Below, piece by piece: positions 14,173 to 49,331 of a stretch of DNA of 64,000 nt (its first letter is position 1; every line of letters begins with the position of its first letter). Source of the stretch: Adhaeribacter soli (GTDB lineage: Bacteria > Bacteroidota > Bacteroidia > Cytophagales > Hymenobacteraceae); NCBI RefSeq assembly GCF_008727925.1, contig NZ_VTWT01000006.1, positions 310,001-374,000 on the forward strand, read 5' to 3'. The position numbers and the translations under genes were made by a program. The notes under the pieces are model-generated. The model ran no database searches. It was given only the letters and a program-made list of their open reading frames with translations, and had not been told where the DNA came from.

Positions 14173-14561
14173 GATGGTTCAGGTTTCGTGTAAGAGCACA
14201 GTATGAAGAACAATTTTAATTCCGAACTGTTTTTGTGATAAGCTTAAAATGTTAGGAATAATATGTAAAGTGTCCTGTTCAGGAGCCCATTTTAATTGTA
14301 TTTTCCGGAATCCCGCTGTTTTCTTTCGGTTCTAAATCGGGATATAGATTTTTCCTGTAAAAACCTGCTTTCTGGAGCTATTAACTTAAAAACCTGCTGA
14401 GCTGAAAATATTCTGCTGTTTCGCTACTTTATCAATTTAGCAGGGTGGTAAACAGACCAGTACATTCAACTCCCGCACCCATTCATTTCTGGCAGTTCCG
14501 TTTTTTTTTTCAAATTTTTTACAGCCCGGCCCAACGGTTCATTTAAAAAACAGGAAGAGTA
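14173..14561. other. Divergent spacer upstream of the SDR and DUF1254 genes
   Basis: About 390 AT-rich bases with no gene. A run of T followed by CAAATTTTTTAC sits near 14500-14521. No clear -7 box was found on either strand. Confidence 0.45.
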
Positions 14562-15989
14562 ATGAAGAACACAACCCCAGTTCCACCGGGCATTGCCTCA
14601 CCCGATAAGGTCGAAACCCGCCTTGGCACACTCAACTTTTTCGACGGCTTCCCTGACGATGAAAGCGTGAAAAAATTGTACGACAGTCTCGACTTCCAAC
14701 GTGGGGTCCAGGCGTATTTGCTGGGATTGCCGGCGGTTAGCCAGGTTGCCGCGCGCAAGGCGCTAACCCAATGGGGACCTGCAAACACCACTATGCTCAT
14801 CTGGGAGAACATGATCACTCCCCGTACCGTTGCCCTGACGGCAAACAACAATACGCCTTACTTTTTTATGTGGATCGATCTCAAAGAGGGGCCGCTCGTG
14901 ATAGAAGTCCCTCCTAAAGTACTCGGCGTCATTGATGATATGTGGTGTCGCTGGGTAGTGGATGTAGGCTTCCTGGGAGTTGACAAAGGTGAAGGGGGCA
15001 AGTACCTTTTCGTTCCTCCGGGCTACGAAGAAGAGGTACCCGAAGGCTACATAGTAGTTAAGCCCAGAACGTTCGGGATGTACATGTTTTGGCGGAGTTT
15101 CCTAAACGAAAAAGGAGACCCTAAACCCCAGGTACACCTCATTAAGCAAACGGCACGCGTTTACCCGTTCTCCAGGGCCGATAAACCTCCAACGCTTACC
15201 TTCATCGACGCGACCGACAAGCCCTTTTGCCAGGTACCCCCGGCAGACTACACCTTCTGGGAATACCTGAACGAGGTTGTGCAGGAAGAGCCCTCTAACT
15301 CACTCGATACGGTAACTCTAGGCTTCTTTCGATCGATAGGCAGCAAAAGGGGAGTGCCTTTCGCTCCGGATGAGCGAATGAAAGCCATTCTCAGGGAAGC
15401 GGCAGCGGTAGGCCATGCAACTGCAAGAGCAATCACCTACCGGTTGCGGGAAAAAGACGCTTACTTTTATGAGAATAGCGCGTGGCGAAGCTTCTTCGCC
15501 GGCGGCTATGAGTTCCTGGATAATGGCGCCCTTATTCTTGACGCCTACGTGCAGAATTTCTTTCACGTCACGGGCATATCCCCGGCCGAGGAGCAGAAAA
15601 TGATAGGCCAGGGTTCGCAGTACGCGGAGGCTTATGTAGATGCAGACGGCAGGCCGTTCGATGGTTCCAAAAACTATAAGCTCCACCTGCCGCCCAACAT
15701 CCCCGTCAACAATTTCTGGTCAGCAATTATCCACGATACCCAGACCCGTTCCCAATTGCAGACCGACCAGCACTGGCCGGCGGTAAGCAGCCAGGACAAG
15801 AATTTCCGCCTGAACGAGGATGGCTCTGCTGATGTCTATTTCGGGCCGCAGCCACCTGCAGGCAAGGAAAACAACTGGATACAGACTATTCCCGGCAAAG
15901 GATGGTTCATCATGCTGCGCTTGTACGGTCCTCTGGAGCCGTGGTTTAATAAGACTTGGCGTCCGGGAGAGATCGAACTGGTTAAATAG
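14562..15989 (+). CDS. DUF1254 and DUF1214 domain protein, copy 1
   Basis: 475 residues. The N-terminal half (about 15-190, with FFDGFPDDESVKKLYD, RGVQAYLLGLPAV and NNNTPYF) fits DUF1254, the C-terminal part (about 350-470, with PPNIPVNNFWSAIIHD and the end GPLEPWFNKTWRPGEIE) fits DUF1214. Such two-domain proteins are common in bacteria, and no enzymatic activity is established that I can name. There is no signal peptide at this start, unlike many relatives, so it may be cytoplasmic. A close copy follows 98 bases downstream on the same strand. The coding sequence looks richer in GC-ending codons than its neighbours, which may mean transfer. Confidence 0.85.
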   Translation: MKNTTPVPPGIASPDKVETRLGTLNFFDGFPDDESVKKLYDSLDFQRGVQAYLLGLPAVSQVAARKALTQWGPANTTMLIWENMITPRTVALTANNNTPYFFMWIDLKEGPLVIEVPPKVLGVIDDMWCRWVVDVGFLGVDKGEGGKYLFVPPGYEEEVPEGYIVVKPRTFGMYMFWRSFLNEKGDPKPQVHLIKQTARVYPFSRADKPPTLTFIDATDKPFCQVPPADYTFWEYLNEVVQEEPSNSLDTVTLGFFRSIGSKRGVPFAPDERMKAILREAAAVGHATARAITYRLREKDAYFYENSAWRSFFAGGYEFLDNGALILDAYVQNFFHVTGISPAEEQKMIGQGSQYAEAYVDADGRPFDGSKNYKLHLPPNIPVNNFWSAIIHDTQTRSQLQTDQHWPAVSSQDKNFRLNEDGSADVYFGPQPPAGKENNWIQTIPGKGWFIMLRLYGPLEPWFNKTWRPGEIELVK

Positions 15990-16087
15990 CGGGAAGGTGG
16001 CGTACAGACCATAGCTGCCAGGCTGGGAAAGAGCTAATTACCTTTTGCCTTAGTAAACAAATTTTATAAAATAAACCGGAAGAGCAA

Positions 16088-17518
16088 ATGAAAAATACTA
16101 CCCCAATTCCGCCGGGCATTGCCTCTCCTGACAAGGTCGATACCCGCCTTGGCACACTCAATTTTTTTGACGGCTTTCCCGACGATGAAAGCGTGAAAAA
16201 ATTGTATGACAACCTGGACTACCAGCGGGCGGTCCAGGCATATTTGCTGGCCTTGGCTGCCGTAAGCCAGGTAGGCATGAAAAAGGCACTCCTTCAGTGG
16301 GGGCCCGCAAACTTTACCCTCCTGATCTGGGAAAACAGGATCACGCCCAAAACAATTTTCTGGATGACCCAAAACGTTACCCCCTACAGCAATGTTTGGA
16401 TCGATCTTAATGCGGGTCCGCTGGTTGTTGTGATCCCTCCTAAGGTACTTGGCATCATAAATGATATCTGGGCTCACTGGATTTCGGATGTGGGATTTAC
16501 CGGACCAGATAAAGGGGATGGCGGTAAATACCTGTTGCTTCCCCCGGGCTATGCAGATGAAATACCCGAAGGCTACATCGTGGTAAGGCCAAAAACCTTC
16601 GGGATGTTTATCTTTTGGCGCAGTTTCCTGGACGAGAAAGGAGACCCCAAACCCGGGGTTGAGGTAATCAGACAGATGACGCAGATCTACCCGCTCACCC
16701 AGGCCGATAATCCACCAAAGCTAAACTTCGTGGATGTAACCGACAAGTACTTTTGCCTGGTACAGCCGGCAGACTACGCCTTCTGGGAGTACCTGAACGA
16801 GATAGTGCAGGCGGAGCCCTCCGACTCACTCGACCCGGTTACACTTGGCTTCTTCCGTTCTATTGGCATCAGCAAAGGTAAGCCCTTTTCCCCAGACGAC
16901 CGTATGAAAGCCATTCTCAGGGAAGCGGCAGCGGTTGGTGATGCTACCGCCCGGGCTCTTACCTTCCGGATGCGGGAAAAGGAAGCATACCTCTACGGGA
17001 ACAGCTCCTGGCGAAGCTTCTTCGTCGGTAATTATGCATTTTTAGAGGACGGCGTCCTCGTTCTTGACGCTTACACGCAGGCTTTTTTCATTGGCGGAGC
17101 GGGCACGACCCCGGCTATTGAGCAGAAGATGATAGGCCAGGGATCGCAGTACGTCGGGGCATTCGTGGATTCTGAGGGAAGGCCTTTCGATGGGGCCAAA
17201 ACCTACAAGCTTCACCTTCCGCCCAACATCCCGGTAAAAAACTTCTGGTCGATCACGGTCTACGACAATCAGACCCGCTCTCAGCTACAAACCGACCAAC
17301 CCTGGCCGGCTATAAACAGCCACGATAAAGGTTTTGGCCTGAACGAGGACGGCTCTGCCGATGTATACTTCGGGCCAGAGGCCCCGGCAGGGAAGGAGAA
17401 TAACTGGATCCAAACTATCCCCGGCAAGGGTTGGAATACTGCTCTCCGCCTTTATGGACCACTGGAGCCTTGGTTCGAGAAAAACTGGCGTCCGGGAGAG
17501 ATCGAACTGGTTAAATAG
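16088..17518 (+). CDS. DUF1254 and DUF1214 domain protein, copy 2
   Basis: 476 residues, colinear with copy 1 and highly similar along the whole length: same N-terminus (MKNTTPIPPGIASPDKV), same central and C-terminal motifs (PPNIPVKNFWSITVYDNQ, GPLEPWFEKNWRPGEIE). The last 30 or so bases of the two genes are identical. The pair therefore arose by tandem duplication, followed by divergence, mostly in residues 55-110 and 130-330. Function is unknown, as for copy 1. A DUF202 membrane protein gene follows 120 bases downstream and may be cotranscribed. Confidence 0.85.
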   Translation: MKNTTPIPPGIASPDKVDTRLGTLNFFDGFPDDESVKKLYDNLDYQRAVQAYLLALAAVSQVGMKKALLQWGPANFTLLIWENRITPKTIFWMTQNVTPYSNVWIDLNAGPLVVVIPPKVLGIINDIWAHWISDVGFTGPDKGDGGKYLLLPPGYADEIPEGYIVVRPKTFGMFIFWRSFLDEKGDPKPGVEVIRQMTQIYPLTQADNPPKLNFVDVTDKYFCLVQPADYAFWEYLNEIVQAEPSDSLDPVTLGFFRSIGISKGKPFSPDDRMKAILREAAAVGDATARALTFRMREKEAYLYGNSSWRSFFVGNYAFLEDGVLVLDAYTQAFFIGGAGTTPAIEQKMIGQGSQYVGAFVDSEGRPFDGAKTYKLHLPPNIPVKNFWSITVYDNQTRSQLQTDQPWPAINSHDKGFGLNEDGSADVYFGPEAPAGKENNWIQTIPGKGWNTALRLYGPLEPWFEKNWRPGEIELVK

Positions 17519-17638
17519 GTGCTTGGTGGTGCGGCGGCGAAGTGTCATCGCCGCTGAGTTCCGGAAAGTAACAGGGTGGGAGATTCCGGTATTTAGGAAC
17601 AGCCTACCTGATAAATAATTTAAAGGAATTCAGGGAAA

Positions 17639-26637: not shown

Positions 26638-26669
26638 ATTTAAGGGAAAATATCCATTTATAAGTTTTT

Positions 26670-26695
26670 TTCATTGCCGTCTGCTTTCGCTGACG
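26670..26695. repeat. Half-copy of the TTCATTGCCGTCTGCTTT palindrome
   Basis: Forward copy of the motif seen as a full palindrome at 35050-35107. The inverted half-copy lies at 27746-27773. Together they bracket the uraH gene and the repeat-rich spacer. Confidence 0.8.
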
Positions 26696-26757
26696 ATTTT
26701 ATGGGGTAGACAACTGGCTAAAATAGTCTGGCCGGTTTTCAGGTGTTTCTGCTGATC

Positions 26758-27701: not shown

Positions 27702-27745
27702 GGGTAGAAAATGTTAGGCCAAAGCAAAAAGTCTGTTTCTGAAAA

Positions 27746-27773
27746 CCGTCAGCTAAAGCAGACGGCAATGAAT
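27746..27773. repeat. Inverted half-copy of the 35050 palindrome
   Basis: CCGTCAGCTAAAGCAGACGG continuing into CAATGAAT: the reverse complement of the motif at 26670-26695 and the right half of the palindrome at 35050-35107. Confidence 0.8.
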
Positions 27774-27835
27774 AATTAATTATAGATCGAGATACACCTT
27801 GGGTGATTAGAACCTAAAGGTTAAAGCAGCAAAGC

Positions 27836-45190: not shown

Positions 45191-46261
45191 ATGTCCGTTA
45201 AAACTCTCGATGCAGATGTTCACAACCTGTATGCCGACCCAACCTTATCTGCAAATTCCGCCGGGCTCCGTTACATTCCCGATACCAAACCCGGCATCTC
45301 CCGCACGCAAAGGAAAGACGGTTTTGTGTACACTGATGCTAAAGGCAATCCGGTAACTGATGAACGAACATTAGCCCGAATAAAAAAACTGGTTATTCCC
45401 CCGGCCTGGATTGATGTCTGGATCTGTGCTTCGCCCAACGGCCATTTGCAGGCTACTGGCCGCGACACGAAAGGGCGGAAGCAATATATTTATCACCCCG
45501 AATGGAACCAGTCCCGCAACCAAACCAAATTCGGCCGGATGCTGGCTTTCGGCAGCATGCTGCCCCAGATCCGCCAGGCCATAGAAGCCGACTTGCGTTC
45601 GCACGGGCTTAGCCGCCGCAAAATTACCGCCATTGCCCTTAACCTGATGGACCAATCGTTGATCCGGGTCGGGAACCGGTATTATGCGCAATCGAATCAA
45701 TCGTACGGTTTAACTACTTTGCGCGACAAGCATGTGAAAATTTCGGGCGCGGAAATAAAGTTCGAATTTGTGGGAAAAAAAGGCGTGGCGCATACCATTT
45801 CCATTAAAGATAAGCGCCTGGCGCAACTGGTAAAAAAATGCCGCGATATTCCGGGCTACGACCTTTTTCAGTACTACGATGAGAACGGCGACCGCCGCAC
45901 CTTAGAATCCGGCGACATCAACCATTACCTGAAGGAAGTGACCCAAACCGATTTCTCAGCCAAAGATTTCCGGACTTGGGGCGGTACGGTGCGCATGGTA
46001 GAATGCTTGGAAAGCAAACTGCACGAAAGCCCGGAAACAGACAAAGAAAAACTGGTAAAGGAAGCCTTTAAAACAGTAGCAAAAGGCTTGGGAAACACGC
46101 CCAGCGTGTGCAGCAAATACTACGTGCACCCCCAGGTAATAGACCTTTTCAAAACCGACAAACTGGTAAATTTCCTGAAAAAACACGATGCTACTAAACC
46201 ACAAAATAAATACCTGAGCGGCACGGAAGAGCTGGTTATAAAAATGCTGAAAAGCCTTTGA
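45191..46261 (+). CDS. DNA topoisomerase IB (poxvirus-type)
   Basis: 356 residues, usual length. It relaxes supercoils by a 3'-phosphotyrosine intermediate. N-terminal domain with GLRYIPDTKPGISRTQRKDGFVYTDAKG, then the catalytic Arg/Lys/His set (RVGNRYYAQSNQSYGLTTL, RTWGGTVRMVE) and the catalytic Tyr at 310 or 311 in CSKYYVHPQVID. The C-terminus is EELVIKMLKSL. This family is typical in Bacteroidota and mycobacteria. The last codons form one arm of a 19-bp inverted repeat shared with the convergent gene at 46729. Confidence 0.95.
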   Translation: MSVKTLDADVHNLYADPTLSANSAGLRYIPDTKPGISRTQRKDGFVYTDAKGNPVTDERTLARIKKLVIPPAWIDVWICASPNGHLQATGRDTKGRKQYIYHPEWNQSRNQTKFGRMLAFGSMLPQIRQAIEADLRSHGLSRRKITAIALNLMDQSLIRVGNRYYAQSNQSYGLTTLRDKHVKISGAEIKFEFVGKKGVAHTISIKDKRLAQLVKKCRDIPGYDLFQYYDENGDRRTLESGDINHYLKEVTQTDFSAKDFRTWGGTVRMVECLESKLHESPETDKEKLVKEAFKTVAKGLGNTPSVCSKYYVHPQVIDLFKTDKLVNFLKKHDATKPQNKYLSGTEELVIKMLKSL

Positions 46262-46728
46262 TAATGTGCTAATTGTTTAATGTGCTATTGTGCTAATTTG
46301 GTAAGGTGGTAATTTGGAAATTGGGTAATGATTGATTCGAATAATCCCTTTAGCCTATTAGCGAAGTAGCGTAGGGTTTAAACCCAATGCTGTCAACTTA
46401 AGGAATTATTGCTCTTTCAGACATCTATGTCTGAAAGTAACTGCCGGGGACATCCTTGTCCCCGTATCCATACACGCGGACAAGGATGTCCGCATCAGAT
46501 TTCGTTTCGGACATAGTTGTCCGAAACAGCGATACCAGTTAATATAAATACTTAAGTTGATGGCATTGGTTTTAAACCCTATGGTACTGAGAAAATTTAT
46601 GATCTTATTCCATTTTCCGATTAACCTACGACTCCTGAAATAATAATTAAATTAATCATTTAACCCATTCACCCTATTTACAACTCCAACACATTATCAC
46701 ATTACCATATTAAGAAATTAGCACATTA
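46262..46728. other. 467-base spacer between topoisomerase IB and the kinase-like gene
   Basis: No gene; entirely made of nested inverted repeats and palindromes. The left edge has AATGTGCTAATT-type direct repeats and the right edge their inverted copies. Confidence 0.75.
46414..46527. repeat. Array of four palindromes with shared GACA-N4-TGTC core
   Basis: Hairpins at 46414-46437 (10-bp stem, loop TCTA), 46445-46464 (8 bp, TCCT), 46476-46493 (7 bp, AGGA) and 46504-46527 (10 bp, TAGT). All keep GACA before and TGTC after the loop, while the outer arm bases differ from copy to copy and remain perfectly complementary. Centre spacings are 29, 30 and 31 bp. No open frame crosses it. Confidence 0.9.
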
Positions 46729-48318
46729 TCAAAGTCCTTCCCGGTCATAAGCATGAATGGCTACGTCTTTGCTGAGTTTCTTTTTGATCTCTGGCGTTAG
46801 CTCCATCTGGATGCCGCGCTTGGTGTCGTAAACTTTAATATTCCGGTTGGAGCCGGAAATCTTAGAAGTATCGGTTAACTCATCTTCGCCTTCGCCGCCG
46901 TATACGTTCAGGCGGATTGCTTTCCGGGCCTGGCCGCTTATTTCAAATTCATCGTTTCCGCCGAGGCCGTGCAGGGTAATGGCATCGGTTTCATCCGGGT
47001 GAAAGGTGCGGCTGTAAAAAGGTTCTTTCTCTTTGGAGCCTTTGCGAAATACTTCCACTTTGGTTTCGCCGGAAGGCAGGCGGGTCGCCTTAAATATTTC
47101 CGGTTCGTCGCTGCCGGCCACGGTTACATCCTCGGCCAGGATCTCGTAAATTTTAGCGGCGGCTTGCGGAAGTTTATCACGGCGACTCTTCAATCGGAAA
47201 ATGGTAACCGGGCCGGTTTTGGCGTAGATCGGAGCCGGCAATTCCCTGAAAGCCCGCTCAATTACGTCATCGGTTAAAGCAGCTTTTATTTCTTCAGCAT
47301 GCCGGACCCATTCGGCTTGGGTAACCTCATTTAAGGCGCGGGCATCGATGAAACGCGCGTTAAAAAGCCAGCCGGGCAGGTAGCCGTAATCTTCATGAAA
47401 AGTCTGGAATTTTTTAAGCAGCAGGCGGTTACTGGCCAGCCAGGTAATAATGCCGTCCTCGAAACGGTAAAAAGTCTGGTCGCGGTCTTTGGGTACCGGT
47501 TTGTACAGGGTTTGGCCGTCATTTTTATACACCGCCCATTGCCACTGGCCTTCGTGCCGGTCCCAGTCACCGATCAGGACATCGAAGAGGCGGCTCCGGG
47601 CAAAAAGGCTTTGGTCGATCTGGTAATTATTCTTTTCGAAGCGGTTCAGCAGCATTTCTTCGCTGTCTACCAGATCGGTGGCATTGCCGAACATCGGCGT
47701 CAGGTTTTGCTTGCCGTCGAATTTTTCTTCCAGCAGCATCACTTTCCCGTTTATGCGTGGAGAAAATTTTCCGAAGGTGCTGTCGTTTTCGGTTACATAG
47801 TAGATTGCCGGACTGGTGTAAAAGATACCGGCTGCTTTGGAAAGGTCAGGTAATACCAACGGAGCAAACGGATTGGCAGCGGAGGTCTGGTCGCGGACCA
47901 CATTTACCACGAAGGATTTGCGAAGCCCTTTGGGCAGCGTTTTCTGGGGATCTTTGTCCAGGGAGCGGAGTACGTATTGCTTGCCGGTTTCTGTTTTTAA
48001 CGTAAGGCTGGTGGTCTGAAAGCCGCCGCCAAGCGAAACCGGCGAGAGGCCGCCCTGCGCTTCCTGCATCCGGAAAACCGGAAGCTTTACCGGGGTAGCC
48101 CAAAGTTCGCGGTAATGTTTGCCGAAGAAAAGCCGTTGTAAAAAGCCCTTGTCATAATGGCGGCCAACGGTTACAGTTACGCTGTCGGGAATATTTCCGG
48201 AGGCAATTTTTTCTTTTTCAGCCTGATCCACAAGGGCTGTTTTCTGAAAAAAATTAGACCGGGCACAGCTTAGGCAAAAACTCGAAACAAGAAATAAGAT
48301 AAGGATGGACCTTGGCAT
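46729..48318 (-). CDS. Exported kinase-like protein (unknown family), copy 1
   Basis: 529 residues. The N-terminal hydrophobic segment ends in CLSC (possible lipobox), so it is probably exported. The core carries, in order, motifs like those of atypical kinases of the HipA/Fam20C group: GGGFQT loop (97-102), VLRSLDKD (116-123), hinge-like VMLLEEKFDG (193-202), GDWDRHEGQW (250-259; Asp253, His255) and KDRDQTF (277-283). After residue 300 it has a helical region (RRDKLPQAAAKIYEI) and a C-terminal beta part with GGNDEF and GGEGEDEL repeats. I infer a kinase fold from these motifs; I do not recognise a named family. A paralogue lies at 51867-53405, where the DRH of the loop is changed. Monocistronic, convergent with topoisomerase IB. 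Confidence 0.75.
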   Translation of the reverse strand: MPRSILILFLVSSFCLSCARSNFFQKTALVDQAEKEKIASGNIPDSVTVTVGRHYDKGFLQRLFFGKHYRELWATPVKLPVFRMQEAQGGLSPVSLGGGFQTTSLTLKTETGKQYVLRSLDKDPQKTLPKGLRKSFVVNVVRDQTSAANPFAPLVLPDLSKAAGIFYTSPAIYYVTENDSTFGKFSPRINGKVMLLEEKFDGKQNLTPMFGNATDLVDSEEMLLNRFEKNNYQIDQSLFARSRLFDVLIGDWDRHEGQWQWAVYKNDGQTLYKPVPKDRDQTFYRFEDGIITWLASNRLLLKKFQTFHEDYGYLPGWLFNARFIDARALNEVTQAEWVRHAEEIKAALTDDVIERAFRELPAPIYAKTGPVTIFRLKSRRDKLPQAAAKIYEILAEDVTVAGSDEPEIFKATRLPSGETKVEVFRKGSKEKEPFYSRTFHPDETDAITLHGLGGNDEFEISGQARKAIRLNVYGGEGEDELTDTSKISGSNRNIKVYDTKRGIQMELTPEIKKKLSKDVAIHAYDREGL

Positions 48319-49015: not shown

Positions 49016-49331
49016 ATGCTGACCAAGTAGTAATTCTCACTTTTAAGTCCCCTTTTGAAGCTAATCTTAAAAGGAAAAAATCCGGACCGGTTTTTAATGA
49101 TAAAAACCTTGGATTTAAAGCAGTTTTATACGCTAGCGGTCATCTCGACGCCAGGAGAGATCTCCGAAATAAGGTAGAAAAGCCAGAATAAAAGACACTA
49201 CCAACTTGATGAGATCTCTATTGGCGTCGAGATGACTTAAAATTTTCACCCTACAAGATTAGCCTCAGGCGGACGCATGCTTCGCGCAATTAACCTTCGT
49301 AATTTAATAACAAGCTGCTTTACACGCTACA
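49016..49331. other. Spacer with a dispersed inverted repeat
   Basis: No gene. An imperfect inverted repeat at 49139-49236 fills the middle; the rest is AT-rich and unremarkable. Confidence 0.5.
49139..49236. repeat. Inverted repeat, GTCATCTCGACGCCA type
   Basis: Arms GTCATCTCGACGCCAGGAGA (from 49139) and, on the other strand from 49236, GTCATCTCGACGCCAATAGA, continuing into GATCTC; about 26 bases with two or three mismatches, 45-base loop. Same style as 38791-38904 and 53430-53559. Confidence 0.8.

Follow-up and report, generated by a model that had tools for sequence, protein, structure and literature searches.

What is the regular array of four hairpins that lies between two convergent genes of Adhaeribacter soli, and what could have placed it there? 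We analysed it within a window of 64,000 nucleotides, the whole stretch of DNA under study (G000:C13:310001-374000), which is part of a genome of 4.97 Mb. On one side is a bacterial topoisomerase IB gene (45191..46261, plus strand; Topoisom_I, Top1B_N_bact), and on the other a minus-strand gene of 529 aa (46729..48318) for which searches of Pfam and NCBIfam gave no match; both neighbours are outside the element. An earlier, sequence-only reading had placed four hairpins at 46414-46527, their centres separated by 29, 30 and 31 bp, and the sequence, read directly, bears this out. The array is one copy of a dispersed small mobile element, which we call a tetrad.

The complete element spans about 120 bp from GCTC to CAGC on the plus strand (46411..46530, the boundaries of the dispersed unit; covariance-model match 139.7 bits), with two forward hairpins, A and B, followed by two reversed ones, C and D, in the order A+ B+ C- D-. 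Hairpin A (46414..46437, plus strand; CTTTCAGACA-TCTA-TGTCTGAAAG) has the tag GCTC at 46411-46414, and hairpin B (46445..46464, plus strand; CGGGGACA-TCCT-TGTCCCCG) the tag CTG at 46441-46443. On the minus strand, hairpin C (46476..46493; GCGGACA-AGGA-TGTCCGC) has the tag CAG, the minus-strand CTG, at 46496-46498, and hairpin D (46504..46527; GTTTCGGACA-TAGT-TGTCCGAAAC) has CAGC at 46527-46530. The layout of the unit is GCTC-[A]-CTG-[B]-spacer-[C]-CAG-[D]-CAGC, every hairpin being preceded on its own strand, at a constant distance, by CTC or CTG, and the oriented motif, GACATCNNTGTC, reads ++--. Because hairpins 3 and 4 are oppositely oriented, loop 3 is the reverse complement of loop 2; the relation noticed earlier as a complement holds in this form, and orientation explains it. 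The sequence GACANNNNTGTC occurs four times in the window, always in the tetrad, against an expectation of 0.42 (0 of 100 shuffles reach four), and GGACANNNNTGTCC occurs three times against 0.01 expected. The core of hairpin D carries one substitution in the window copy (GACATAGTTGTC versus GACATAGATGTC in the close copies L003 and L004). Folded as single-stranded DNA, both strands are far more stable than shuffles (z about -9.9). A and D, the outer hairpins, form by themselves; B and C, the inner ones, can pair as one long hairpin.

BLAST with the region returned many dispersed matches, partial and full, whose common core is window 46411-46530. Counting BLAST and covariance-model matches, an iterated profile search found about 30 full tetrads and about ten partial ones in the genome. 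Spacings of 30, 30 and 31 bp are kept in 25, 25 and 24 of the 27 measurable copies, respectively. By a simple ORF rule, 27 of 28 checked copies are confined to the gaps that separate neighbouring ORFs, clear of any ORF of at least 100 aa, and the gap contexts of the 28 are 11 convergent, 14 codirectional and 3 divergent. Within the genome, the core is common to all four hairpins and the four arms (A CTTYC, B CGG, C GCG, D GTTTC) are position-specific and reproducible over the roughly 30 copies. The array is neither unique to this locus nor irregularly spaced elsewhere, the two outcomes that the sequence-only reading had set against its own proposal; its view that this is not a CRISPR array also stands, given the alternating orientation, the four different arms and a unit dispersed in about 30 copies. 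In two collapsed tetrads (L058:1436-1527 and L068:1459-1485), one hairpin joins a D arm to an A arm, the product that a deletion running from one outer core to the other would leave. A degraded array adjoins one tetrad at L012:1280-1410; its layout is similar, its cores differ (GGGTCTATCGATCC and others), and it possibly represents a third core family.

The arms vary in a coordinated manner. Among distinct hairpins from the genome and its relatives, 96% of cells pair in hairpin A, with 48 double-change cells where 500 column shuffles give at most 19, and 94% pair in hairpin D, with 32 versus a shuffle maximum of 15; these column shuffles ignore relatedness. A consensus fold of the copies from this genome alone has seven pairs with compensatory changes. 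Such patterns of substitution indicate that the hairpin structure is maintained. A search of Rfam gave no relevant family, the one sub-threshold hit being a chance miRNA match.

The genome has seven Y1_Tnp matches. A RAYT gene at C12:56405-56950 (181 aa) has tetrads on both sides (L052/L072), and a second, 90% identical, at C12:58269-58814 has half a tetrad upstream. The product of the first matches NCBIfam NF047646 REP_Tyr_transpos with 113 bits (cut-off 80) and Pfam Y1_Tnp; it lies above the RAYT cut-off, not the IS200 cut-off, and contains the motifs NHLH, WQ, YIHQNP and SS. A search of PDB sequences gave only weak IS200-type matches. A Pontibacter homologue was modelled (mean pLDDT 90.7), and among PDB folds the model is closest to 4er8 (E 1.9e-8, Foldseek), a complex of the E. 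coli RAYT and a REP hairpin. The sequence-only reading had supposed that a dedicated enzyme selects or copies the palindromes, and had advised looking for a Y1/HUH transposase near arrays; a RAYT-type Y1/HUH transposase does stand beside them, and the arms do covary within hairpins. The association extends to family relatives, in which a tetrad or part of one lies at most 1.5 kb from the RAYT in 26 of 30 RAYT loci, and 8 of the 22 upstream tetrads measured end exactly 27 bp from the matched RAYT start. On plasmids, a search found only distant RAYT relatives, on seven records, and so there is no sign of recent plasmid spread.

Not every RAYT of this genome is associated with tetrads. The RAYT on C5 (51% identity) was considered as a tetrad-linked gene and rejected, its flanks being other palindromes with no tetrads. 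At L053:8186-8746 (G000:C5), the palindromes beside the RAYT are GCCAATCTCCCGATTGGC and GCGTAGAG..CTCTACGC, and a RAYT at L054:14577-15122 (G000:C2) has ACGAGCCGGAGGCTCG.

A gene-containing form of the element is also present. At G000:C2:40157-40910, a distinct RAYT (70% identical) lies between an A+B+ half and a C-D- half, and about 140 bp downstream is a gene-less tetrad in which 47/52 bases of the AB half (90%) and 53/55 of the CD half (96%) match. The core family of this element is GGATTTG, which is dispersed in the genome too. The loci L078, L096 and L110 likewise have the layout AB-[RAYT]-CD. With a RAYT inside AB and CD ends beside a gene-less copy whose ends are nearly identical, tetrads look like gene-less derivatives of RAYT elements. 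The simplest reading of these sequences, in which we infer the direction of change, is that tetrads would descend from AB-[RAYT]-CD elements via gene loss.

We then asked how far tetrads and RAYTs travel together in 150 genomes of the family, which includes Pontibacter-, Rufibacter- and Hymenobacter-like relatives as judged from the named RAYT relatives. Tetrads occur in 35 of 36 genomes with a close RAYT (E up to 1e-80) versus 26 of 114 without one (Fisher p 1.8e-16, calculated without phylogenetic correction). The 26 could contain relics, use another RAYT or have a RAYT that was missed. The tetrad architecture is found in Pontibacter, Rufibacter, Hymenobacter and a Chlorobiota MAG, with the A-B and C-D pitch at about 29-31 bp throughout. 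The regular pitch that the sequence-only reading had advised searching for recurs across the genome and in relatives' arrays as well. The B-C distance is variable: most loci have about 27-34 bp, two have 38-39, and those of Rufibacter and Hymenobacter type have 44-59.

That reading had described an invariant core with diversified arms, and here the comparison reverses it: the arms are fixed by position in the tetrad, and it is the core that changes between lineages. Cores of different genomes include GGACATC.., GGAYTTCC.., GGATTTATC.., GGAGTTA.. and GGATTTG.., whereas the arms CTTYC / CGG / GCG / GTTTC and the CTC/CTG tags stay mostly constant. With core labels assigned by eye, core type clusters on the RAYT tree, with 7 changes versus 24.6 when shuffled (0 of 200 shuffles as low), and core and RAYT have co-evolved. 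The match is not one-to-one, as in Pontibacter the similar cores GGACATC and GGAYTTCC are intermixed on the tree.

In G001, a species of the same genus, a genome-wide search found no match to the C12 RAYT, and the gaps orthologous to the window site (flanking genes about 72-75% identical) and to L021 have no tetrad. Its genome gave four weak tetrad matches: two badly degraded, one barely recognisable and one, L166, with intact hairpins and a core of another type. At this species distance (about 75% identity), the comparison is consistent with a tetrad insertion at the window site, and the absences in themselves would fit insertion or loss. A third candidate comparison, L009, was set aside, as only one of its flanks is conserved in G001.

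The tetrad of the window is itself bracketed by a 45-bp inverted repeat, with the left arm (GTAGCGTAGGGTTTAAACCCAATGCTGTCAACTTAAG...) at 46365..46409 on the plus strand and the right arm at 46544..46588 on the minus strand, 84% complementary. This outer repeat, GTAGCGTAGGGTTTAAACCC(AATGCCGTCAACTTAAG), brackets a subset of tetrads, and its motifs are about 166-168 bp apart in several of these. It also surrounds an unrelated insert (L061:1693-1930), forms a stand-alone palindrome at L066:1480-1508, and occurs in pieces without tetrads in G001; an exact-match search of G000 and G001 found no closed outer palindrome without an insert, which lends no support to the idea of a palindrome serving as insertion target. 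We treat it as a separate repeat and not as part of the tetrad. According to the text of PMC3733652, some other bacteria have palindromes into which REP dimers have inserted, and tetrads inside the outer repeat may be a parallel case.

Several other repeats were seen in the window. An inverted repeat of TGTGCTAATTTG type (46251-46317 / 46673-46739, 76% complementary) surrounds the whole region, and sequence of this type is scattered over G000 and G001 independently of tetrads. At 49139-49236 is an inverted repeat with a 20-nt spacer (GTCATCTCGACGCCAGGAGAGATCTC...), probably another dispersed palindrome; similar sequence flanks the L005 tetrad. Inverted copies of GCCGTCTGCTTTMGCTGACGG type lie about 1 kb apart (26667-26700 / 27742-27775), with similar sequence flanking L002 and L061. 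Finally, a direct duplication at 14561-17529 (period about 1.53 kb, 75-79% identity) probably represents tandem paralogous genes.

These observations bear unequally on the other accounts of the array that we considered. That it arose by chance clustering of REPs, or by local tandem duplication of one hairpin, is suggested by the likeness of the four cores, but about 30 dispersed copies and the other genera keep order, orientation, arms and pitch, and none arises in shuffles; we regard this account as refuted. A larger mobile unit, in which the tetrad is cargo and the outer repeat GTAGCGTAGGGTTTAAACCC-AATGCCGTCAACTTAAG is moved by a classical DDE transposase, would fit the near-constant distance at which the repeat brackets tetrads in several copies and its survival in internally deleted ones (L004, L058). 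Most tetrads, however, lack the outer repeat, including those beside RAYTs, the repeat encloses another insert at L061 or stands alone at L066, and in other genera tetrads end in GCTC...CAGC with no outer repeat, making such a unit very improbable.

Somewhat less improbable, though still unlikely, is that the tetrad is a domesticated structural or regulatory element whose hairpins act at the RNA or DNA level, the RAYT linkage being historical. It could be a terminator between convergent genes, stabilise mRNA 3' ends, or bind a nucleoid- or gyrase-type protein; roles of this kind are reported for REPs elsewhere in the text of PMC3733652. Such a role would agree with the position of the copies in intergenic gaps, of which 11 are convergent and only 3 divergent, and with the strong folding of the single strands. 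Half of the copies are codirectional, however, and the two orthologous G001 sites without a tetrad argue against a conserved positional role. The core, moreover, co-varies with the RAYT, and in G001, which lacks this RAYT, the matches are only degraded or divergent.

The account that we favour with considerable confidence is that the tetrad is a gene-less, MITE-like mobile element of the Bacteroidota RAYT/TnpA-REP system, moved by a RAYT and derived from an AB-[RAYT]-CD element. The RAYT whose genes bear tetrad flanks is very probably the one that moves tetrads. Each half (A+B, and C+D inverted) would be a two-hairpin transposon end and, in single-stranded DNA such as the lagging-strand template, would fold into two hairpins 30 nt apart. 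We infer that a RAYT encoded elsewhere in the genome would recognise the hairpin core together with a 5' CTC/CTG guide, cleave at this tag in the manner of a Y1 HUH nuclease, and move the AB...CD unit by single-strand transposition into intergenic sites. Loss of the gene from AB-[RAYT]-CD would then leave a tetrad.

How does such an element relate to known systems? According to the main text of PMC6006769, RAYT subclass 2.6 (group 5), mostly from Bacteroidetes, has the motifs NH[LIV]H, WQ, YIH[QN]NP and SS and about 179 aa, and its genes are flanked by manually found, non-GTAG 'atypical secondary structures' with copies elsewhere in the genome. Compared with the published motif table, the C12 RAYT fits in motifs, size (181 aa), Bacteroidetes host and lack of GTAG. 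The four-hairpin unit, 30-bp pitch, positional arms, core switching and gene-less tetrads, in contrast, do not appear in that main text, although its supplement may include individual hairpins. TIRtrons or TIRYTs, as presented in the text of PMC3733652, are RAYT-like genes between long, sometimes double-palindromic TIRs, of which repeat families are made. The element at C2:40157-40910, a RAYT between inverted double palindromes with dispersed tetrads, gene-less end dimers, of the same core family, agrees with this description; the text of that paper does not mention a pitch fixed at 30 bp, CTC/CTG as the tag, four arms that can be told apart, or cores that track the lineage.

A REPIN pairs two inversely oriented REPs, and its tag is of GTAG type (PMC3116915, PMC8266576). 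Like REPINs and BIMEs, tetrads are short, intergenic, inverted palindromes, non-autonomous, with proposed mobilisation by a RAYT elsewhere in the genome (PMC3116915, PMC8266576). Unlike a REPIN, in which exactly two inverse REPs make up one hairpin, a tetrad has four hairpins per unit, ++--, each half being two direct hairpins 30 bp apart with the tag CTC/CTG. The ends of IS200/IS605 elements (IS608, ISDra2) share the Y1 HUH fold and subterminal hairpins, but a tetrad has two hairpins per half and its enzyme is assigned by the RAYT cut-off, not the IS200 one. As in a REPtron, the transposase is a Y1 HUH enzyme belonging to the RAYT family, and its gene is flanked by palindromes of which the genome has further, dispersed copies. 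The GTAG/GTGG found 5' to the foot of canonical REP hairpins is replaced by GCTC or CTG, and we propose CTC/CTG as a candidate guide in its place. As in MITEs, gene-less copies share ends with a gene-bearing element, and two orthologous sites in G001 have no tetrad.

The RAYT-palindrome link and double-palindrome ends are thus already known in kind. The main text of these papers, as far as we found, describes neither a unit of four hairpins nor its pitch, the placing of its arms or the switching of its core, and a literature search for tetrads of Pontibacter or other Bacteroidetes gave nothing specific. The tetrad is a regular, poorly described variant of REP/RAYT elements.

More tentatively, and with the balance somewhat against it, tetrads may form a RAYT substrate class of their own. 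The rigid end of two hairpins would be read in two parts, with a lineage-specific core as the password of its RAYT, families that coexist without cross-reacting, and AB-[gene]-CD forms and tetrads that interconvert. The 30-nt pitch would be about three helical turns if duplex, the conserved positional arm and CTC/CTG tag would mark the element end and strand, and the GGACATC and GGATTTG core families would, if this is true, coexist in one genome without cross-reaction.

RAYTs are usually viewed as domesticated transposases that have lost self-mobility and propagate short REPs or REPINs. Here, one genome has a RAYT inside its own paired-hairpin ends beside gene-less copies that share these ends, which may connect IS-like elements with REP populations. 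The A+B+C-D- order, 30-bp pitch and GCTC...CAGC ends give an annotation definition for an 'atypical' repeat family, and the swaps of core on a fixed scaffold, tracking the RAYT tree, provide a natural series for how these enzymes read hairpin DNA.
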